This document shows positions 1 through 47,572 of a stretch of 47,572 nt of DNA, one piece after another. Each line of letters opens with the position of its first letter. Positions within the stretch are counted from its first letter, which is position 1. Made by a program: the position numbers and the translations under genes. The notes beneath the pieces were generated by a model. The model was not told the DNA's origin, searched no databases, and saw only the letters and a program-made list of their open reading frames with translations. The stretch spans positions 1 to 47,572 of IMG/VR virus record IMGVR_UViG_3300028908_000015; one strand, 5' to 3'. This stretch comes from a virus.

Positions 1-118
1 AGCTCCGGCCGCTAAGGAAGCTCCGGCCGCTAAGGAAGCTCCGGCCGCTAAGGAAGCTCCGGCCGCTAAGGAAGCTCCGGCCGCTAAGGAAGCTCCGGCT
101 CCCGCCGCAACGGAGGTC
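1..118. repeat. Terminal redundancy, left copy
   Basis: These bases match the last 118 bases of the window (47455-47572) except for one position, T at 100 against C at 47554. Five exact 18-bp repeats (2-91) plus a unique segment (92-118) make up the match. The same reading frame enters from the right end and leaves here, so the sequence is circular or circularly permuted. Because the shared segment lies inside a tandem repeat, the true copy number at the join is uncertain. Confidence 0.85.
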
Positions 119-281: not shown

Positions 282-1460
282 ATGCCCACTCCAACTGAAC
301 ACGCGCCGTTCTCACCGTCCAGTATGGACAGAAAACTCAAATGCCCGGGTAGCCACCTGGCTACCTTGGGAATGGAGGACCCTTCCTCCTATGAAGGGGA
401 GCGGGGGACAGAATGTCACGTATGGGCGGAAGAATTGTTCTGCAATCCTGACAGCACCCCGCCTCAATTCATTGAAGACTGGCAGGAGAAGTGCACCCGA
501 GATATGGTGCAGATGGCTTGGGACATCCGGGACGAGTACGCCATTCGCGGAGATGTCCAGGTCTTCCAAGAAGAGCAGGTCTCCCTTGACTGGCTCAGCG
601 ACACCGAAGTTGACATGAGCCACTGCTGGGGGACCGCAGATCTTCTGTTCTGGGCGCCGGATGAGCGTACCCTGGTTGTTCTGGACTACAAGACAGGCAT
701 CGGAATCCCGGTGTCCCCGGACAGCACCCAGCTCAAGATTTATGGCCTGGGTGGACTCGGCAAGGTCGGTTACCCCAACGTTGACCGGGTGGAACTCGTC
801 ATCTTGCAGCCCCGGATTGATCCCATGCCCAAACGGTATATGCTGGCATCGGCTGATCTCCTTACCTGGGGAGAAGAGGTGCTGAAACCCGGCATCAAGC
901 AGATGCTGACACCGGGGGCGCCTTTCGTCCCGGGGGACCACTGCCAGTGGTGCCTGATCAAGGGAAAGTGCCCCGCCCGGGCAAAGCAGTACACTGACCT
1001 GTTCGATGAAAACCCGGAACCGGCAGAGCAGGCCGCCAACGATCTCCTCGGCCCGCTGGACATCAACAAGCTGCTGAAGCAGGTCAAGGGCTTCAGGAAA
1101 TGGTGCAGCGATGTAGAGGCAACAGCCATCGACATGATGAAGTCCGGTCAGGATCTGCCCGATTTCAAGCTCGTAGAGGGCAGATCCAATCGTCGCTGGA
1201 CAGACGTGGAAGCCGCCGAGAAGTTCCTGAAGAACCAACGGCTCAAGATGAACGAGCGTTACAAGATGACGCTCATCGGCCCGGCTCCGGCAGAAAAGCT
1301 CCTTGCAGACAAGCTGAAGAACACCCGAACCGCAAAACGGTTCTTCGAGCTCATCGAAAAACCCCCGGGAAAAATTACCTGGGCGCCGAAAACAGACAAA
1401 CGCAAAGCAGTGGATGTAAACCCGGTAAAGAAGTTCGTGAACATCGAAGACTTAATCTAA
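282..1460 (+). CDS. DUF2800 family nuclease (Cas4/RecB-like PD-(D/E)XK)
   Basis: A 392-residue protein of the DUF2800 family, Cas4/AddB-like nucleases found next to DUF2815 and a phage DNA polymerase. The visible nuclease core is H46 in GTECHVWAEE, D120 in GTAD and D135/K137 in VVLDYKTG. Cys at 221, 224 and 230 (CxxCx5C), with an early Cys at 21, matches the iron-sulfur staple of Cas4/AddB enzymes, so a 4Fe-4S cluster is likely. The start at 282 has AGGAGG at 271-276; a longer open frame from 180 only overlaps the previous gene. It probably resects or processes DNA ends with the neighbouring ssDNA-binding protein. The last six residues, NIEDLI, recur in other proteins of this genome. Confidence 0.9.
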   Translation: MPTPTEHAPFSPSSMDRKLKCPGSHLATLGMEDPSSYEGERGTECHVWAEELFCNPDSTPPQFIEDWQEKCTRDMVQMAWDIRDEYAIRGDVQVFQEEQVSLDWLSDTEVDMSHCWGTADLLFWAPDERTLVVLDYKTGIGIPVSPDSTQLKIYGLGGLGKVGYPNVDRVELVILQPRIDPMPKRYMLASADLLTWGEEVLKPGIKQMLTPGAPFVPGDHCQWCLIKGKCPARAKQYTDLFDENPEPAEQAANDLLGPLDINKLLKQVKGFRKWCSDVEATAIDMMKSGQDLPDFKLVEGRSNRRWTDVEAAEKFLKNQRLKMNERYKMTLIGPAPAEKLLADKLKNTRTAKRFFELIEKPPGKITWAPKTDKRKAVDVNPVKKFVNIEDLI

Positions 1461-1486
1461 CGCAACGAAAACAAAGGAGAAAGATC

Positions 1487-2095
1487 ATGGCAAGCAGAAC
1501 CATTCTAACCCCCGAAGGACGATGTGCTTTCATGCACGTGTTCGAACCTTCAACCGATCCTTTTGGCGGTGTCAGTTATTCGGTACGACTGATGTTCCCC
1601 AAAACCATGAACATGGCCTGGATCGAAGATGCCTGGAAAGCTGTGTGTATTGAAGAATTCAAAACCGCGACACCTCCCGGACTTCGCCCCCTGTACAGCA
1701 AAGATCCGGAACAGGATAAAGGTTTCATTCAGGACGGTGACTTGCGGTACCAAACCGCACCGATTGAGAAGAAACCGCTGTACGAGGCGTATCGTGAAAA
1801 TTGGATCGTGCCGCTGAAGACCAGTCCTGAGGCCCCGCCAGCGGTAGTGGGACCTGACAAAGTGGAAATTGTTGATCGGTCCGCCTTTGCCTCCGGTGAT
1901 TACGCTCGAGCAGTAATTGAAGTTAGTGCGTACACCATGAAACGACTCAGCAAACCGATGGTTAGCGTTCGCCTCCGGGCGATCCAGAAGACCCGAGACG
2001 GTGAACGGTTCTCCGGCGGTGTCTCAGCCAGTCAGGCTGTCGAAATGTTGGATGAAGTCGCTGTTGGTCCGACAAATATTGAAGATGTATTCTAA
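1487..2095 (+). CDS. DUF2815 ssDNA-binding-like protein
   Basis: A 202-residue DUF2815 protein. Members of this family sit between DUF2800 and a family A polymerase in many phages and are thought to be OB-fold single-strand-binding proteins. The N-terminus MASRTILTPEGRCAFMHVFE and the basic-aromatic body fit the family. The start at 1487 follows AAAGGAGAAAG; the frame is open further upstream but only as a shadow of DUF2800. The protein ends TNIEDVF, an acidic tip followed by a hydrophobic residue that resembles the interaction tail of bacterial SSB (DDDIPF). A strong terminator follows at once, so this gene closes the transcript that starts at the promoter near 46.9 kb, unless there is read-through into the polymerase. 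Confidence 0.87.
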   Translation: MASRTILTPEGRCAFMHVFEPSTDPFGGVSYSVRLMFPKTMNMAWIEDAWKAVCIEEFKTATPPGLRPLYSKDPEQDKGFIQDGDLRYQTAPIEKKPLYEAYRENWIVPLKTSPEAPPAVVGPDKVEIVDRSAFASGDYARAVIEVSAYTMKRLSKPMVSVRLRAIQKTRDGERFSGGVSASQAVEMLDEVAVGPTNIEDVF

Positions 2096-2141: not shown

Positions 2142-2396
2142 ATGCCTGACGACTACTCAACCCCCGATTGGCAAGAGCTAAGAGAAGAGGTTGAAAGCGC
2201 TCGTTATGCTTTCAATGGTGCGACGCTCCGGGAAGGCATGCAGGAGTATTGCCGGGTTGCGCTCATCCAGGAGCACGTTGAGTACCTCCATGAAAACCGG
2301 GATGCCTGGGAGATCTTCGCTAACGTGATCGGCTACAATGACGTCACCATGATCCGCAAGATCGTTGGGGCTTACCGGTACGAGCGGGGCGTGTGA
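2142..2396 (+). CDS. Small acidic hypothetical protein before the DNA polymerase
   Basis: An 84-residue protein starting MPDDYSTPDWQELREEVESA, helical and charged, with no recognised domain. CGGAG lies 6 bases before the chosen ATG; upstream in-frame codons run back through the terminator hairpin and are not credible. Its TGA overlaps the polymerase ATG in a TGATG arrangement, which implies translational coupling to the polymerase. It may be a polymerase accessory, but that is inference from position only. Confidence 0.75.
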   Translation: MPDDYSTPDWQELREEVESARYAFNGATLREGMQEYCRVALIQEHVEYLHENRDAWEIFANVIGYNDVTMIRKIVGAYRYERGV

Positions 2397-4375
2397 TGAG
2401 AGTCCATCTCGATTTTGAAACGCGTAGCCGGGTTGACATCAAAAAGTCCGGTGTCACCCGGTACGCCGAAGATCCAAGCACCGATGTGATCTGCCTTGCC
2501 TGGGCCATCGATGATGACGAGCCCTCCCTGTGGCTTCCGGGGCAACCGATGCCCTCCCGGCTGCACAAGGCGGTCCTTTACGAGGCGGACTTCTGGGCAT
2601 GGAACGCCCCGTTTGAGATCGCTATCTGGCAGCACGTCATGGTCCGGAGATACCAGTGGCCGATCATACCGCTGTACCAATGGCAGGACACGGCGGCCCT
2701 GGCCCTGACCTGCGGGTACCCGGGGCAACTTGGCAAGTGCGCCAAGGCGCTCAAGGTGAAAATGCAAAAGAGCGTGACCGGCACCAGGCTCATTAACATG
2801 TTGTCCAAGCCCAAGAAGGACGGCACCTTCAGGGGGTTTGCGGACAACAAGGACTTGTTCCTTCAGATGTACGCATATTGCAAGCAGGACGTCCGGACGG
2901 AGCGGGATATATACCATGCCCTGCCTATCAAGGAGATCACGCCGCAGGAGCGGCGTGTGCAGCTACAGACGTGGATCATGAACCGTCGGGGCCTGCCTAT
3001 TGATGTCGTCAGCGTGGACGCCATCCAGGACACCATCCGTCGGTACGTTAAGCACCTTGATCAGATCACCAGTCTGCTGACCGATGGGCGCCTCATTTCA
3101 ACCCGGCAACGGGACGCCCTGCTTGAAGAGCTCGAAGTGAACCTGCCGGATCTTCAAAACGCCACGGTGAAAAAAGCCCTGGAAGGGGAGCTCTCCGAAA
3201 AGGACCGGAAGCTGCTGGAGATCCGGAAACAGATCAACCACGGCTCGATTGCCAAGTTTGCCCGGCTGCAGCAGATGATCTGCAGGGACGGAACGGTCAA
3301 AGACAACATCCAGTACCATGGCGCCAGGACCGGCAGGGACGCTGGAAGAGGTTTTCAGATTCAGAATCTTCCCAGGCGGCATGTTGCGGACCCGGACCTG
3401 TTCATGGAATTGTATTCCAGATTTGGAATACGGAAACTGGACCTGATCTTTCCGATCCTGGAGACCGCTTCTGCCTTGATCCGCCCCTGTGTCATGGCCC
3501 CCCCGGGAAAGAAACTGATCGTGTCAGATTTTTCCCAGATCGAGGCCCGGGGTGTCGCGTGGACCACTCGGGAGATGGACATCCTAAAAGAGTTTGAAGC
3601 CGGGGTGGATCCGTACATCGCCCAGGCCAGCAAAATGTACGACAAACCCATGGAAGAAATCCAGAAAGGATCCATTGAGAGGCAGTATGGGAAAATGGCC
3701 GTCTTGCTCCTCGGGTACCAAGGGAGCCACAAGGCCATCACCCGTTTTGCCGAAGCGTACAAGCTTAACATCGAGCGGAAAGAGGCGGCCGAGGTGGTCA
3801 AGAAGTTCCGGGGATCCCGGCCGCGCCTGGTGAACGCATGGTACAGTTTTGCACAGGCGGCCATGGCCGCAGTAGAAGCCCCGGGAACCCAGCAGATCGT
3901 GCCGGATTGCGCCCCTGCCGTGTTTCAAATGCGCGGACCTCACCTTACCATGCGTCTGCCTTCAAAGCGGCTCGTGTGGTATCCTGAGGCGCGGGTGGAA
4001 GAGGTTACGGTGCGCTACGAGGATGCTGAAACCGGGAAGATGAAAACTTTCACCGCGAACGCCGTTACCTGCATGGTGATCGATTCCATGACTAATTACA
4101 AATGGGTTCGAAAGGGTATGAGCGGCGGGAACCTTTTTCAGAATTACGTCCAGGCCATCTGTCGGGACATCCTGATGGAAGCCGTGCTGCGTTGTGAGGC
4201 TGCCGAGTATCCGGTAATCGGTCGCGTTCACGATGAGGTGATCACCCTGGTGCCGGATAGTGTCATGTATTCCCTGGTGCAGCTTAATCAGATCATGTCA
4301 ATTCGACCCAAGTGGGCCTTGGATTTTCCGATCAAGGCCGATGGATATGAGAGTAAAAGATATAAGAAAGATTAA
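2396..4375 (+). CDS. Family A DNA polymerase with 3'-5' exonuclease domain
   Basis: A 659-residue replicative polymerase. The proofreading exonuclease comes first: D6 and E8 in HLDFETRS, then the YCKQD segment around residue 165. Polymerase motif A is SDFSQIEARG with D378, motif B is RQYGKMAVLLLGYQG, and motif C is VHDE with D613. The size is typical of phage family A enzymes of the DUF2800/DUF2815 cluster. A GTG three bases upstream could also serve as start, but the ATG at 2396 overlaps the previous stop in TGATG and leaves the exonuclease DxE at its usual distance. It should copy the phage genome together with the primase-helicase at 44-47 kb and the SNF2-like protein just downstream. No thumb or palm segment appears to be missing. 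Confidence 0.96.
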   Translation: MRVHLDFETRSRVDIKKSGVTRYAEDPSTDVICLAWAIDDDEPSLWLPGQPMPSRLHKAVLYEADFWAWNAPFEIAIWQHVMVRRYQWPIIPLYQWQDTAALALTCGYPGQLGKCAKALKVKMQKSVTGTRLINMLSKPKKDGTFRGFADNKDLFLQMYAYCKQDVRTERDIYHALPIKEITPQERRVQLQTWIMNRRGLPIDVVSVDAIQDTIRRYVKHLDQITSLLTDGRLISTRQRDALLEELEVNLPDLQNATVKKALEGELSEKDRKLLEIRKQINHGSIAKFARLQQMICRDGTVKDNIQYHGARTGRDAGRGFQIQNLPRRHVADPDLFMELYSRFGIRKLDLIFPILETASALIRPCVMAPPGKKLIVSDFSQIEARGVAWTTREMDILKEFEAGVDPYIAQASKMYDKPMEEIQKGSIERQYGKMAVLLLGYQGSHKAITRFAEAYKLNIERKEAAEVVKKFRGSRPRLVNAWYSFAQAAMAAVEAPGTQQIVPDCAPAVFQMRGPHLTMRLPSKRLVWYPEARVEEVTVRYEDAETGKMKTFTANAVTCMVIDSMTNYKWVRKGMSGGNLFQNYVQAICRDILMEAVLRCEAAEYPVIGRVHDEVITLVPDSVMYSLVQLNQIMSIRPKWALDFPIKADGYESKRYKKD

Positions 4376-9192: not shown

Positions 9193-10945
9193 AATTCAAA
9201 TTGAAAGCCCCTGATACCGCACCAACAGAAGTTGGTGCTTCTTTATACTTCTCAAGGTCAAACCCGGCCCTGATCCAGTCATTGACAACGGCAGCAGTGA
9301 ATCTTGAATCCCAACTAAACCTATCCTGTTCCCGACATTTAGCGATAAACCCATCAATAGTCGCTGGTGTCTCTCCGATATAAGTCATGTAGGTGTCTAT
9401 ATCTCTCGTGGGATCAGTGAATGTCTGTTGTGCCCATGACGATCCTGTTTCACCGATCCACGATACCCATCCTGCATAATCTGTGCTTACACCGTTAGTG
9501 TAAAATAAATCGTTCCCAGCATAGTATTTATTTCCGCTAAAAGAGTATTCGCTTCGACAGTCCCAACCTGCGTAAGCCACCCCTGATGTGATTGTTATTC
9601 CTGGAAGTTGAATAAGGTTATCTTTGAATACAATATTCTGCGAATCTATAGCTCCATAACTTATATTTATTGGTCTTTTCTTCCCTGCGTTATAAACTAC
9701 ATTACTTTGCCAGATTACATCTTGAGATGTCCGATAACCTGTAGTTAAACATTCCGCTCCATTTACATTACCATAGTTCATTATTAAATTGTTTGATATT
9801 AACCCATTCTGAACCAACCCGCCAAGCGTAATGCCGTTACAAGAATCAATATCTAAATAATCCGTATCAGCCCCGTTGGTAAACACAGTATTTATATAAT
9901 GGAAGTCTGGCAAGTGATCGTCATACCCATCGTCAGGAAAATTTCCTCCCGCCTGAATAGAATCAAAACCACCTATATGCAGATCATTATTAAACCTATG
10001 CTGGATTGTCATCTCTTTTCGAGAAACTTTTATGTTTGAAGCTGACGGATAAACTGAAACATTTTCATCTGAATCAACTATTTTGTTTGACGATAAATAC
10101 ATGGAATGGTTAAAGATTGTTGCTTGACCATCAGTGGCGTCCTCTCCAGCATTGGTACTTGGTATCCTCCATCCACAATGAATAAAATAATTCTGATAAA
10201 GTTTAAGACGTGTAATGTGGTGTGCATAAATGCCTTGTGAATGAGCGTCGGTGTCATAAGAATCGGCAAACGTATTTCGTCTTAATTCGATAGAAACATC
10301 AGAGGTTTCAGCACAATCTAAATTAGCTCCGATGGTGTACCATCGGAACTTGCACCCTTCAATCAAAATACCATCAATATTTTCTGTAGGAGCATAGATA
10401 AAAATGCCTTCTTTTCCACTAATAACCGTTCCTCCATCATCAGGGTTGCGACTTTTGCAATAAAAATCAAGCCCGAACAGAGCGATATAATTCCTGTTTT
10501 GTCCTATATAAACGGCTTCGCTCGACAAGTCTGTGGTATTAAGAATCGGACAATCACCACTTCCTCCATAAGCCCCAACAACCAACGGCTCTGTAAGTGA
10601 TCTTCCAGACTTGTTGATACTTATAGAAGAACTTACTATCCATGTTTCTCCGCGCTTAAACAGAACCCAGTCCGGGAAACCGTCCCTTACATTAGCAAAC
10701 GCCGCCGCAAAAGTAGCATAAGGCTTTATCGTACCTGTTGGATTAAACGGGTCGGATCCGATTTCTGGATCGCTCGGTAGGTAATATTGCGCGGTAGAAT
10801 CATCTCCAGAAGAAGAGACATATATAAGGCGCGTGTCATTCGATGCCGTGAATATTGTCCACCCGTTTACATCTCTTGGTAGATTCAGGAAAGCAGACCA
10901 TACAACAGACGGGCAAAGCAGTATTAAAAAAAGAATGATCCTCAT
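9191..10945 (-). CDS. Sec-exported right-handed beta-helix protein
   Basis: A 584-residue protein with a Sec signal peptide (MRIILFLILLCPSVVWSA) followed by a pectate-lyase-like parallel beta-helix: repeated short segments of the type NYIALFGLDFYC, NISYGAIDSQNIVFKDN and GLISNNLIMNYG. Such folds bind or cut polysaccharides. The start at 10945 overlaps the previous stop in ATGA; an ATG 15 bases upstream is also possible. Tail spikes usually lack signal peptides, so this one is either secreted to the periplasm or cell surface, or the hydrophobic N-terminus serves another purpose. A depolymerase role is inference; catalytic residues were not identified. It is the last gene of the late arm and the partner of the protein at 15965-17704. 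Confidence 0.78.
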   Translation of the reverse strand: MRIILFLILLCPSVVWSAFLNLPRDVNGWTIFTASNDTRLIYVSSSGDDSTAQYYLPSDPEIGSDPFNPTGTIKPYATFAAAFANVRDGFPDWVLFKRGETWIVSSSISINKSGRSLTEPLVVGAYGGSGDCPILNTTDLSSEAVYIGQNRNYIALFGLDFYCKSRNPDDGGTVISGKEGIFIYAPTENIDGILIEGCKFRWYTIGANLDCAETSDVSIELRRNTFADSYDTDAHSQGIYAHHITRLKLYQNYFIHCGWRIPSTNAGEDATDGQATIFNHSMYLSSNKIVDSDENVSVYPSASNIKVSRKEMTIQHRFNNDLHIGGFDSIQAGGNFPDDGYDDHLPDFHYINTVFTNGADTDYLDIDSCNGITLGGLVQNGLISNNLIMNYGNVNGAECLTTGYRTSQDVIWQSNVVYNAGKKRPINISYGAIDSQNIVFKDNLIQLPGITITSGVAYAGWDCRSEYSFSGNKYYAGNDLFYTNGVSTDYAGWVSWIGETGSSWAQQTFTDPTRDIDTYMTYIGETPATIDGFIAKCREQDRFSWDSRFTAAVVNDWIRAGFDLEKYKEAPTSVGAVSGAFNLN

Positions 10946-11814
10946 TTTGATCCGCTCCACAATGGGTTGGTAGAATAAACATGAAAATTGTCAAACGTAA
11001 CAGTGTTGATTTGAGATCCAAAAGCGGCAATGTTTATTCCGAGTTCAAGCCTATATAAAGTAGTAAATGGGTTTGTTGTTATATCTGACATAACACAGTT
11101 ACCATAGCCGACAATCTCCCCCTCTATTAATCCATCAGGCGTCACGTCATCGGTAGAACCCTTAAAGTGGTAGTGGACCGTATATACAGTTCCGGCAACA
11201 GGGGTGAAAGGCTGGTCACCGGAGCAAATTGGTTCGCTTTTAGATCCATTCACATAACCCCTAAACATGTAAGACGCAATGTTGCCGGCACTATTGATGT
11301 TAAATTGCAGTATGTCGCTCTGCCCACTACCTGTATAAGAGTATCTTCCAATGTACATAGTATTAGAAGGCTGCCACCCTGTATCTGACGAAAATGATAT
11401 GTCAAACTCTATCCAAAACTCTGTTAAATTTCCGGAGACACCTTCCAATACCAAATAGGCAGTCTCTGTATCTGCTTCCAATGCTACATCTAATGCGTTA
11501 TTATTTACAGACATTCGTCCGGCAGAATCTACTAACACTCCCCATTCATCCGGACACCCTCCAACCCCTTGGCAGGTAACATCCGTAGGATCGGTGACAT
11601 TATCCCAGTTTGTAGCGAAAGCATCTGTTGCTGAGGGCTCTTCAATCTTTTCGAATGCGGTACCATTATGCAGATACTTAGAGGCAGGTTTAAAGCTTGT
11701 GCCATCATGCACATAAGCTGTATCCGGCACGAACGTTGTCCCGTTATGCTGAAACCCCCAAGCCGATGAAACCAGTAGGAAAAGAACACTAATTAATCTG
11801 AAAGCAAAGATCAT
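10942..11814 (-). CDS. Sec-exported protein with LamG-like domain
   Basis: A 290-residue protein with a signal peptide (MIFAFRLISVLFLLVSSAWG), then three short repeats of the form HNGT-F-P--Y (QHNGTTFVPDTAYVHDGTSF, followed by YLHNGTAFEK), then a jelly-roll region of LamG/concanavalin type ending VTFDNFHVYSTNP. The C-terminal half resembles that of the protein at 17706-18893. It overlaps the upstream gene by 26 bases and the downstream gene by 4. Carbohydrate binding at the cell surface or on the virion is a reasonable inference. Confidence 0.72.
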   Translation of the reverse strand: MIFAFRLISVLFLLVSSAWGFQHNGTTFVPDTAYVHDGTSFKPASKYLHNGTAFEKIEEPSATDAFATNWDNVTDPTDVTCQGVGGCPDEWGVLVDSAGRMSVNNNALDVALEADTETAYLVLEGVSGNLTEFWIEFDISFSSDTGWQPSNTMYIGRYSYTGSGQSDILQFNINSAGNIASYMFRGYVNGSKSEPICSGDQPFTPVAGTVYTVHYHFKGSTDDVTPDGLIEGEIVGYGNCVMSDITTNPFTTLYRLELGINIAAFGSQINTVTFDNFHVYSTNPLWSGSK

Positions 11815-39799: not shown

Positions 39800-40693
39800 T
39801 TAAATCAAGTCCTCTATGTTTATAGGCACTTGTTTTAAACCCGCTGTATCTTGCTTTATTTTACGGTCCTCATCTTCAAGCCTTGGCGTTGCTAAATCCA
39901 TAACATATTCCTCGTTTATTTCTATCCCCACAAAATTCCGGAAATGCTGAAGGGCTACAACACCCGTTGTACCTGATCCTGCAAAAGGGTCCAACACTGT
40001 GCCGCCTTTCGGGCAACCCGCAAGAATACACGGTTCTATTAGTTTCGGAGGAAATGTTGCAAAGTGGGCTTTTTTATACCTGGCTGTTGTTACTGTCCAT
40101 ACCGATCGTTTGTTTCGTCCATTTATTTTAACCGCTTCTTTGATGGCATCCGCGTCGTAATAATATCTTGCAGACTTACTCATCAAAAAAATATATTCAT
40201 GGGCTTTCGTACATCGATCCTTAACACTTTCCGGCATTGGATTCGGTTTGTGCCAGATGATGTCCTGCCTTAGATACCACCCATCGGCCTGCAAGGCGAA
40301 AGCCACCCGCCAGGGTATTCCGATCAGGTCTTTCGGTTTAAAAGACGCTTTTTTAAAATCCGGGCTTCTCTTGTTTGGCGGGGTTGTTTCATCTGGGTCT
40401 CTATTCGCTCCAAACGGTTTATGGGCATACTTCTTACCCCAATACCCTGCATAAACATCCCCAAGATTAAGCCACAACGTTCCATCATCCCTCAATACCC
40501 GCTTAACCTCCCGGAACACCTTGACCATATTTTCGACATAATCTTCTACTGTAGCTTCGAGGCCCATTTGCCCATCAACCCCGTAATCGCGCAGCCCCCA
40601 GTATGGTGGCGATGTCACACAACAATGGACATACTGAGACGGCATCTCAGCTAACTTGTCATGCGCATCGCCAATGTGCAGTGTGAAACCCAC
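39800..40693 (-). CDS. DNA (adenine-N6 or cytosine-N4) methyltransferase, beta-type
   Basis: A 297-residue methyltransferase: catalytic TSPPYWGLRDYG (26-37) at the N-terminus and the AdoMet-binding motif DPFAGSGTTGVVAL near the C-terminus, followed by FVGIEINEEYV. This order is that of beta-type enzymes. SPPY is most often seen in N4-cytosine enzymes, but the base cannot be assigned. There is no partner restriction gene, so it probably protects phage DNA from host restriction. The start is GTG, 2 bases after the HTH gene stop. The protein ends VPINIEDLI, a tail shared with four other proteins here. Confidence 0.9.
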   Translation of the reverse strand: MGFTLHIGDAHDKLAEMPSQYVHCCVTSPPYWGLRDYGVDGQMGLEATVEDYVENMVKVFREVKRVLRDDGTLWLNLGDVYAGYWGKKYAHKPFGANRDPDETTPPNKRSPDFKKASFKPKDLIGIPWRVAFALQADGWYLRQDIIWHKPNPMPESVKDRCTKAHEYIFLMSKSARYYYDADAIKEAVKINGRNKRSVWTVTTARYKKAHFATFPPKLIEPCILAGCPKGGTVLDPFAGSGTTGVVALQHFRNFVGIEINEEYVMDLATPRLEDEDRKIKQDTAGLKQVPINIEDLI

Positions 40694-41009: not shown

Positions 41010-41543
41010 TCACAGGATATCTTCAATGTCAAGCGCTTTTTTGTTGGGGTCCTTCACATTTTTTCCTATACCACTTCCATCGATAGCCGCCAGCTCGGCC
41101 GCTGTCTGCTGTGTAAGGGCGGTTTCCAGCCGCAGGACTTCATCGAGCTCCACGGCATCAACGGGTTCCGAGGAGGCAGTGATAATCTTGATCGTCTTGT
41201 TCGAGTTTTCCGTTATGGTCGTCTCTCGTTTTTCGCTCATAGCGAGCCGGGCCGACAGGATAAACTTTGTCATCGCCACGTCTATTTGCTTTGCCAGCGC
41301 CCTTCTTGACATCTCATCTTCCAGCCGGGTTATGATCTGAGCAAGGACATGCCGGGAATAGTCGCTGATGGTTTTATCAACGAGGGAAAGCGCGTTTACC
41401 ATCACCTGGGCGGTTGAGAACCCAAGAGCGAGCGCAAGGCCAGCCGGTGTGGGTACCTCTTCAGTGCTGAAATAGACTTCGGCCAGCCGTTTCATCGTCT
41501 CCGGATCGGCCATGATGATTTTTGGGGCGATATAATCTTCCAT
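41010..41543 (-). CDS. Small terminase subunit (gp3-like)
   Basis: A 177-residue protein. The RLAEVYFSTEEVPTPAGLAL then ALGFSTAQVM segment fits the P22 gp3 / GP3_package small terminase family, which has GLALALGF in the same place. The rest is helical with an oligomerisation region. It is the first gene of the late arm and should recognise the packaging site. The ATG at 41543 is only a few bases after the predicted transcription start; a longer frame to 41582 runs into the promoter itself. It ends KALDIEDIL. Confidence 0.88.
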   Translation of the reverse strand: MEDYIAPKIIMADPETMKRLAEVYFSTEEVPTPAGLALALGFSTAQVMVNALSLVDKTISDYSRHVLAQIITRLEDEMSRRALAKQIDVAMTKFILSARLAMSEKRETTITENSNKTIKIITASSEPVDAVELDEVLRLETALTQQTAAELAAIDGSGIGKNVKDPNKKALDIEDIL

Positions 41544-41553
41544 AGTGCCTTCG

Positions 41554-41582
41554 ATTGTACGGGCGTTTTTAAGGGGTGTCAA
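41554..41582 (-). promoter_or_regulatory. Main late promoter (minus strand)
   Basis: On the minus strand TTGACA (41577-41582) and TACAAT (41554-41559) are separated by exactly 17 bases, a near-consensus sigma70 promoter. Transcription would start near 41547, about 4 bases before the small terminase ATG. It drives the whole leftward arm. Confidence 0.85.
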
Positions 41583-46920: not shown

Positions 46921-46967
46921 CCACAACAACGCAGAAAAACTATCAACGAAAGGAGGTGAAAACTCGT

Positions 46968-47261
46968 ATGACTGATACTCCACGGGCGGCAAACGCCGCT
47001 GCACTCCGGTTTAAAAGCTTTATCGAAAAGCACCCGCCGGGGATAGCGGCGTTCGCTCAAAGGATCGGAACCACCAGGCAAGCAGTTTACAACTATGCCG
47101 AAGGTAAACAGTTTCCAACCTTGGAAAGAGCGTACCTCATCGAGCAGGCCACGGATGGTTACGTGACCATGCAGCAATGGGGGCAAGCCAAGTTGGAAAA
47201 CAAAAAAAGCGTCAAGAGAAAGCGTAAACAGAAACCGAACAAACTGGATGACATCTTGTAA
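46968..47261 (+). CDS. Cro/YdaS-like HTH protein
   Basis: A 97-residue protein with a lambda-Cro/YdaS-type helix-turn-helix (IAAFAQRIGTTRQAVYNYAE, then GKQFPTLERAYLIEQATDGY and VTMQQW) and a long basic tail (KKSVKRKRKQKPNK) ending KLDDIL. An AAAGGAGGT site precedes the ATG at 46968; an in-frame GTG at 46956 overlaps that site. Its gene is followed immediately by three operator-like repeats. It is the best candidate for the protein that binds the TGTAAA-type repeats. The end KLDDIL belongs to the shared tail family. Confidence 0.85.
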   Translation: MTDTPRAANAAALRFKSFIEKHPPGIAAFAQRIGTTRQAVYNYAEGKQFPTLERAYLIEQATDGYVTMQQWGQAKLENKKSVKRKRKQKPNKLDDIL

Positions 47262-47320: not shown

Positions 47321-47572
47321 ATGGAAATTCGTTTCGACATCAGCAAGAAAAAAGAGGCCGAAGCCGTGGCAAGCATGATTGCCGCTCTTTATCAGATCAA
47401 AACCGTTTCCCCTGCCCCGGCGCCCGCCGCTAAGGAAGCTCCGGCCGCTAAGGAAGCTCCGGCCGCTAAGGAAGCTCCGGCCGCTAAGGAAGCTCCGGCC
47501 GCTAAGGAAGCTCCGGCCGCTAAGGAAGCTCCGGCCGCTAAGGAAGCTCCGGCCCCCGCCGCAACGGAGGTC
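47321..47572 (+). CDS. Junction-spanning AKEAPA-repeat protein, N-terminal part
   Basis: The gene starts with AAAAGGAGT before the ATG at 47321 and reads MEIRFDISKKKEAEAVASMI, then AALYQIKTVSPAPAPAAKE and six exact AKEAPA-type repeats before running off the end of the window. It continues at base 2. The N-terminal ~30 residues look like a short beta-helix unit of a small phage protein; the middle is a flexible Ala/Pro/Lys/Glu linker. Repeat copies are identical at DNA level, so the number probably varies between phage copies. Confidence 0.82.
   Translation, partial: MEIRFDISKKKEAEAVASMIAALYQIKTVSPAPAPAAKEAPAAKEAPAAKEAPAAKEAPAAKEAPAAKEAPAAKEAPAPAATEV
47438..47545 (+). repeat. Six exact 18-bp minisatellite units
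   Basis: GCTCCGGCCGCTAAGGAA is repeated six times without change (47438-47545); five more copies stand at 2-91. Lack of any third-position change shows recent expansion or frequent homogenisation. Confidence 0.93.
47455..47572. repeat. Terminal redundancy, right copy
   Basis: This matches bases 1-118 with a single difference at 47554. See the left copy for meaning. Confidence 0.85.

Follow-up and report, generated by a model that had tools for sequence, protein, structure and literature searches.

Gene content of the window

The window, as we call the whole 47,572-base stretch of viral DNA analysed here, carries at its left end a replication cassette in the order DUF2800, SSB, PolA and SNF2. 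Five genes of the window, two of them in this cassette, code for proteins with similar C-terminal tails. They are listed below together with the polymerase gene, whose product lacks the tail and is considered later as a candidate receptor.

282..1460, + strand: DUF2800 RecB/Cas4-like PD-(D/E)XK exonuclease; tail NIEDLI at 1440-1457 (..FVNIEDLI)
1487..2095, + strand: T7 gp2.5/Enc34-type ssDNA-binding protein (DUF2815); tail NIEDVF at 2075-2092 (..TNIEDVF)
2393..4375, + strand: A-family DNA polymerase (PolA); without the tail, ends ..RYKKD
39800..40693, - strand: N6/N4 DNA methyltransferase; tail NIEDLI at 39820-39803 (..INIEDLI)
41010..41582, - strand: small terminase-like (GP3_package) protein; tail DIEDIL at 41030-41013 (..LDIEDIL)
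46956..47261, + strand: YdaS/Cro-like regulator; tail KLDDIL at 47241-47258 (..NKLDDIL)

The exonuclease was recognized by PF10926 (E=6e-69), PDDEXK_1 (2e-11) and the exonuclease family phrog_69, the methyltransferase by PF01555 (1e-54), and PolA by PF00476 (3e-17) and phrog_17 (7e-91). The product of 41010..41582 is plausibly a small terminase, judging from a weak match to PF16677 (1e-6), slightly under the curated cut-off, and a large terminase is encoded nearby. As a lone query against phages and viral contigs, this protein retrieved no relatives. The matches of the regulator to PF15943 (2e-6) and P22_Cro (2e-5) both lie under the curated cut-off. The SNF2 protein (ending HEAGRES) and a 984-aa protein (ending DINCYL) do not carry the shared tail. 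The sliding clamp profiles PF02768 and PF02916 found no match in the window record, and no PolB was seen in the window.

Both ends of the record consist of one 18-bp tandem repeat, coding for KEAPAA repeats (window 1-110 and 47429-47560), which suggests that the genome is circular and was opened inside the repeat gene. This gene would probably span the junction, from 47321 to about 270, and its repeat number may be collapsed.

A phage SSB by profile and predicted fold

The DUF2815 protein matches PF10991 (Enc34_ssDNA-bd) with E=3e-20 and 72.9 bits, against a cut-off of 26, and belongs to phrog_112. Its AlphaFold2 model has a pLDDT of 89.5, with the tail at low confidence (pLDDT ~60). Foldseek searches with this model retrieved Enc34 SSB (5odj, E 3e-11) and T7 gp2.5 (1je5, 3.5e-7), as well as 4klk and 4jg2. 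Hence, by profile and by its predicted fold, an OB fold of the T7 type, the protein is the phage's own SSB, of the T7 gp2.5/Enc34 type, and a member of the Enc34 SSB/DUF2815 family (PF10991; 5odj, 4klk, 4jg2). An earlier note on this DNA had remarked that the endings recall the SSB tail, and missed that one of their bearers is itself an SSB. The comparison with an SSB tail is therefore literal, and it is probably the SSB that anchors the tail system.

Endings shared within the window

The same note had reported the five endings and their differing codons, and both are confirmed in the sequence: NIEDLI, NIEDVF, NIEDLI, DIEDIL and KLDDIL all lie at the positions listed above. Between the two identical NIEDLI tails, four of the six codons differ synonymously. 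Moreover, over their final 87 coding bases the five genes resemble each other no more than shuffled DNA does. An ORF scan of the window down to 25 aa revealed no sixth tail-bearing protein. The single pattern that the note had proposed, [ND]IED[LIV][IFL], fits four endings but not KLDDIL, and the Cro-like protein is the weakest of the five members. The inclusion of a regulator in the set was not replicated, as the regulators of BPP-1, Enc34 and PMBT21 carry no shared tail.

For the statistics we used a strict motif, [ILVMF][DE]D[ILVM][ILVF]-COOH. It was found at the end of 5 of about 60 genes in the window, as against 1 among 5,128 phage proteins that do not belong to the tail families. Among all 5,605 phage proteins its frequency is 0.21%. 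The binomial P is 2e-12 against the background of 5,128 proteins and 3e-7 against all 5,605, for a pattern that was picked post hoc. For this reason, a pattern-free permutation was also run on the largest group of similar tails among 56 window genes, and it gave P = 0.004-0.007. The window by itself is suggestive, and the weight of the case rests on replication in other phages.

Matched tails in cultured phages and related loci

Related loci were taken from IMG/VR and GTDB, with ORF-based gene calls for the metagenomic ones, and reference phages from GenBank. Throughout this material, tails are unlike between phages and matched inside one phage, and they track the phage lineage, not the host. 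In Bordetella phage BPP-1, the nuclease ends in VEDLV, the SSB in AADLV and the methyltransferase in VADLI. The ending DEV is common to the primase, nuclease, SSB, small terminase and ORF17 of Enc34, and to the primase, DUF2800 nuclease, SSB and small terminase of Salmonella phage PMBT21. Burkholderia phage AH2 has the endings DDL, DGL, EGL and DEL. In Salmonella phage Jersey, the nuclease, the primase and a 77-aa protein share an EDLE/RDLE end and the SSB ends in RRERRRR, so that the role of anchor does not fall to the SSB in every phage. UAE_MI-01 likewise has tails common to other proteins and an SSB that ends in a basic run. In a Jersey-like locus (L421:10442-11068) and a Dhillonvirus (L423:10715-11500), the SSB has an acidic stretch followed by RRERRRR or RKRRRR, respectively. 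These basic SSB ends together with EDLE-type tails are possibly a rearranged receptor and ligand.

The related loci tell much the same story with other letters. Many BPP-1-like prophages and viral contigs have EDLV/DDLV tails, and their Sf6-type small terminases end in SDLV or DDLV. Coordinated changes were found in L294 (EGLV/EGLV, with DGLV on the small terminase) and L312 (EEFV/AEFA, with GEFA on a DnaN-like protein). The change is coordinated in L204 as well, where the nuclease ends in EFSDMI, the SSB in GTADMI and three methyltransferases in LFADMI, and the sharing is similar in L222, L238 and L255. One tail is common to nuclease, SSB, small terminase, methyltransferase and a DnaN-like protein in L352. 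The related pair L005/L008 combines EVSFF on the nuclease with EVNFF or TVNFF on SNF2 and EVSFF or DVSFF on the small terminase; their SSB ends, RPSFV/RPSFA, match EVSFF only in part. In L153, the nuclease (DDFSDL) and the primase (DDFGDL) have matching ends. In some phages, the primase-helicase, SNF2 helicase, DnaN-like protein, ligase or PolB also matches the SSB tail. In Firmicute phages, the common part, DDF, is internal and loose. A T7-type SSB was found in the divergent tail-sharing phages checked, L169 and L005 included. Three of the tail-sharing loci, L169, L005 and L008, have no PolA recognizable by Pfam, so the receptor may differ between lineages.

Several single observations accompany this survey. 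A portal-like protein of L153 (L410:5796-7172) ends in DDFSDI, a match to the nuclease and primase tails. Short DnaN-like proteins of 216-229 aa lie beside the PolA cassette at L352:15534-16223, L264:15878-16555 and L274:15753-16403, and bear the shared tail of their phage themselves; two of the three match the central beta-clamp domain PF02767, and the third was assigned by eye only. A phage clamp was considered as the receptor and rejected, given that DnaN-like proteins occur in few phages (L352, L264), carry the tail themselves and are missing from most.

Similarity and covariation with the SSB tail

We scored each tail against the SSB tail of its own phage as a percentile among all ORFs of the locus, for 92 loci dereplicated at 80% SSB identity. 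The rows for L005/L008 rest on their loose SSB-end match. The DUF2800 tail resembled the SSB tail (percentile 0.287, n=86, p=6e-11), and so did, in small samples, those of the methyltransferase (0.21, n=11, p=2e-3) and the small terminase (0.159, n=11, p=7e-5). The DnaN-like tails were in the top 4% in all three cases. Controls showed no resemblance: SNF2 and the large terminase scored 0.49 each, portal 0.53 and PolA 0.76, and the same was true of capsid and tail proteins (the latter at 0.66-0.74). Only about one in three DUF2800 proteins reached the top 5% in likeness to the SSB tail of the same phage.

The tails of DUF2800 proteins and SSBs also covary, to a degree that a common family consensus would not produce. 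True pairs scored 2.04 against -1.54 (sd 0.54) for permuted ones, and in the BPP-1-like subgroup 7.5 against 2.6; in both cases, none of 20,000 permutations reached the observed value. Because phylogenetic relatedness inflates such permutation p-values, the fairest test is the swap between sister pairs, which favoured the true DUF2800-SSB pairs by 17 to 6 (p=0.017). No covariation was seen at upstream offsets of -20 and -30, and offset -10 was borderline (p=0.042). PolA controls did not covary; the comparison of SNF2 with DUF2800 gave p = 0.011. Within the BPP-1-like group, information peaks in the last 3-4 residues of the SSB and is mildly raised in DUF2800, and the linkers are variable. The small terminases available from this group (n=7) also have high information in the terminal residues. 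Pattern-free clustering per genome, an underpowered analysis at one threshold, was significant in L169, L204 and L153 only.

The proposal that a peptide akin to an SSB tail is kept on unrelated replication, modification and packaging proteins is supported. In addition, the homologue comparison suggested in the earlier note found the tails together in the same genomes for the nuclease, SSB, methyltransferase and small terminase.

A probable docking tail and its possible receptors

Altogether, these sequence comparisons indicate a genuine C-terminal motif that recurs, covaries and has the phage SSB at its centre; its most likely use is in docking. We consider it very probable that the tail is a functional shared motif. 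Here, as in numerous relatives, the acidic and hydrophobic tail of the SSB is matched by the tails of the DUF2800 nuclease, the methyltransferase and the small terminase. One phage receptor may then read this tail, and end-processing, modification and packaging factors would thereby reach new replisome DNA. PMBT21 and Jersey share a host genus and have lineage-specific tails, and for this reason the receptor is probably encoded by the phage. On balance, we favour a phage-specific docking tail by which nuclease, modification and packaging proteins are brought to a replisome component that the phage itself encodes. By analogy, the tail would dock on a replisome protein that lacks it, most simply PolA and otherwise the groove of the SSB. 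A basic patch on the A-family polymerase is a tentative candidate, suggested by T7.

The DNA-binding groove of the SSB itself is possible, if rather unlikely; the nuclease, methyltransferase and terminase would then mimic the SSB tail and sit on SSB-coated DNA. In crystals of Enc34 SSB, of two DUF2815 proteins and of T7 gp2.5, contacts do place C-termini in the grooves of neighbours (PMC5686142), and a T7-type SSB is present in the divergent tail-sharing phages checked. However, Jersey and UAE_MI-01 share tails among other proteins while the SSB end is basic, and the SSB of L005/L008 (RPSFV/RPSFA) matches EVSFF only partially. A receptor supplied by the host, either a reader of SSB tails (PriA, RecO, ExoI, Pol III chi) or the host beta clamp, is improbable. 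The SSB ending DDDIPF and the VapE ending CDDVPF of L355, a prophage-like locus in a Thiodictyon MAG (VapE-type protein at L355:2246-4822), do resemble the bacterial SSB tail, but phages of one host genus differ in their tails (DEV in Salmonella PMBT21, DLE in Jersey), T7 has DxDF in E. coli, and the window tails lack both the Gln of clamp motifs and the Pro-Phe of SSB tails. A vague likeness to clamp-binding peptides is seen in endings of the kind of ADMI and EDLI. The likeness of ADMI prompted us to consider the host clamp, which was rejected on the missing Gln and because the tails track phage lineage. Of the single docking partner, phage or host, that the earlier note envisaged, a single reader is plausible and the host SSB partners it named (PriA, RecO, DnaG, ExoI) are unsupported, for the same two reasons of tails that differ within a host and of absent Pro-Phe.

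Another reading is an effect purely in cis, in which each tail mimics DNA through its acidic residues and so weakens non-specific DNA binding by its own protein. In agreement with this, tail bearers are mostly DNA-binding proteins and Enc34 SSB without its tail binds dsDNA (PMC5686142). This covers acidity, but neither the way in which the last hydrophobic residues match in sequence and covary from protein to protein, nor the absence of a tail from PolA and the large terminase, and we regard an action purely in cis as having a small likelihood. It is very unlikely that the tails are functionless and arose when a single DNA segment was copied onto several genes. In L169, some 129 bp are common to the 3' ends of a cytosine and an N6/N4 methyltransferase gene (L169:9287-9415 and 10884-11012); the frames partly differ, yet both proteins end in DDII. 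DNA copying was accepted for that pair and rejected for the window, where 3' ends are at the level of shuffled DNA and codons differ, and tails persist and covary over about 90 diverged loci. A degradation tag, the other role considered in the earlier note, or chance similarity is equally hard to credit. Chance draws on the pattern-free test, which gives just P ~0.005 for the window alone; the sharing is, however, replicated with covariation in many lineages. Unlike a signal for a host protease, the terminal residues change from lineage to lineage and do so in concert between proteins, and a degradation tag is therefore unsupported.

Returning to docking at a phage component, the data suggest that each phage has a private C-terminal tag that gathers its DNA-cutting, DNA-marking and DNA-packaging proteins, probably at the replication machinery. 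A stronger version, in which one phage receptor reads the lineage-specific tag and nuclease, modification and packaging initiation are assembled on the replisome of DUF2800-SSB phages, coupling replication to packaging, has in our view slightly less than an even chance. A curiosity of one contig would in this way become a testable rule for a large phage group that includes BPP-1, Enc34, chi-like and Jersey-like phages. If the rule holds, it accounts for the targeting of the nuclease and methyltransferase and for the way in which the small terminase locates replicated DNA, and new replisome partners could be found from the last five residues alone.

Relation to known tail systems

In T7, gp2.5 ends in ..DGDF and gp4 in ..DTDF, and the gp4 tails bind basic patches on the polymerase gp5 (PMC12593628). 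The window resembles T7 in having an acidic tail with a hydrophobic end on a T7-type SSB and on a second protein, with a tail-less A-family polymerase present. It differs in the sequence of the tail, in its putative docking on PolA and in the sharers, which are a nuclease, a methyltransferase, a small terminase and perhaps a regulator. Moreover, the SNF2 and 984-aa proteins of the window lack the tail, whereas the primases of PMBT21, Enc34 and L153 carry the shared tail of their own phage. The T4 proteins gp43, gp55 and gp33 have highly similar and interchangeable clamp-binding C-termini (PMC2988020), and T4 late factors have been linked to terminase (PMC9026906). Here too, a hydrophobic and acidic motif is found at the C-termini of unrelated proteins, with one hub tying replication to other DNA transactions, although docking in our case is putative, the motif differs in sequence and the window has neither a clamp match (PF02768, PF02916) nor a PolB. 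Most likely, the principle of tail docking seen in T7 and T4 extends to nuclease, methyltransferase and small terminase; if so, it reaches modification and packaging.

The C-terminal tail of bacterial SSB, DDDIPF, is a recruitment hub. In phage HK620, the SSB tail NDYPPF recruits Sak4 (PMC5928155). The tails described here share with these the acidic residues, the hydrophobic end and the SSB tail as hub. However, in those systems the partners read the tail, and here they bear it. The window tails end in LI, VF, LI, IL and IL, and a Pro-Phe end occurs in L355 only. Tails of Enc34-type SSBs occupy the DNA-binding grooves of neighbouring SSBs in crystals (PMC5686142). A partial, word-based literature search found no description of tail sharing between an SSB and other proteins.

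In a phage of another type, L212, the PolB (L212:11609-14188), an HNH protein (10834-11370) and a methyltransferase (9980-10837) share the endings SLESLFA, TLESLFV and TLEEIFE. The same record (L431) holds a weak gp45-like clamp candidate (E=7e-5, under the cut-off), so this shared ending may be a T4-type clamp motif.
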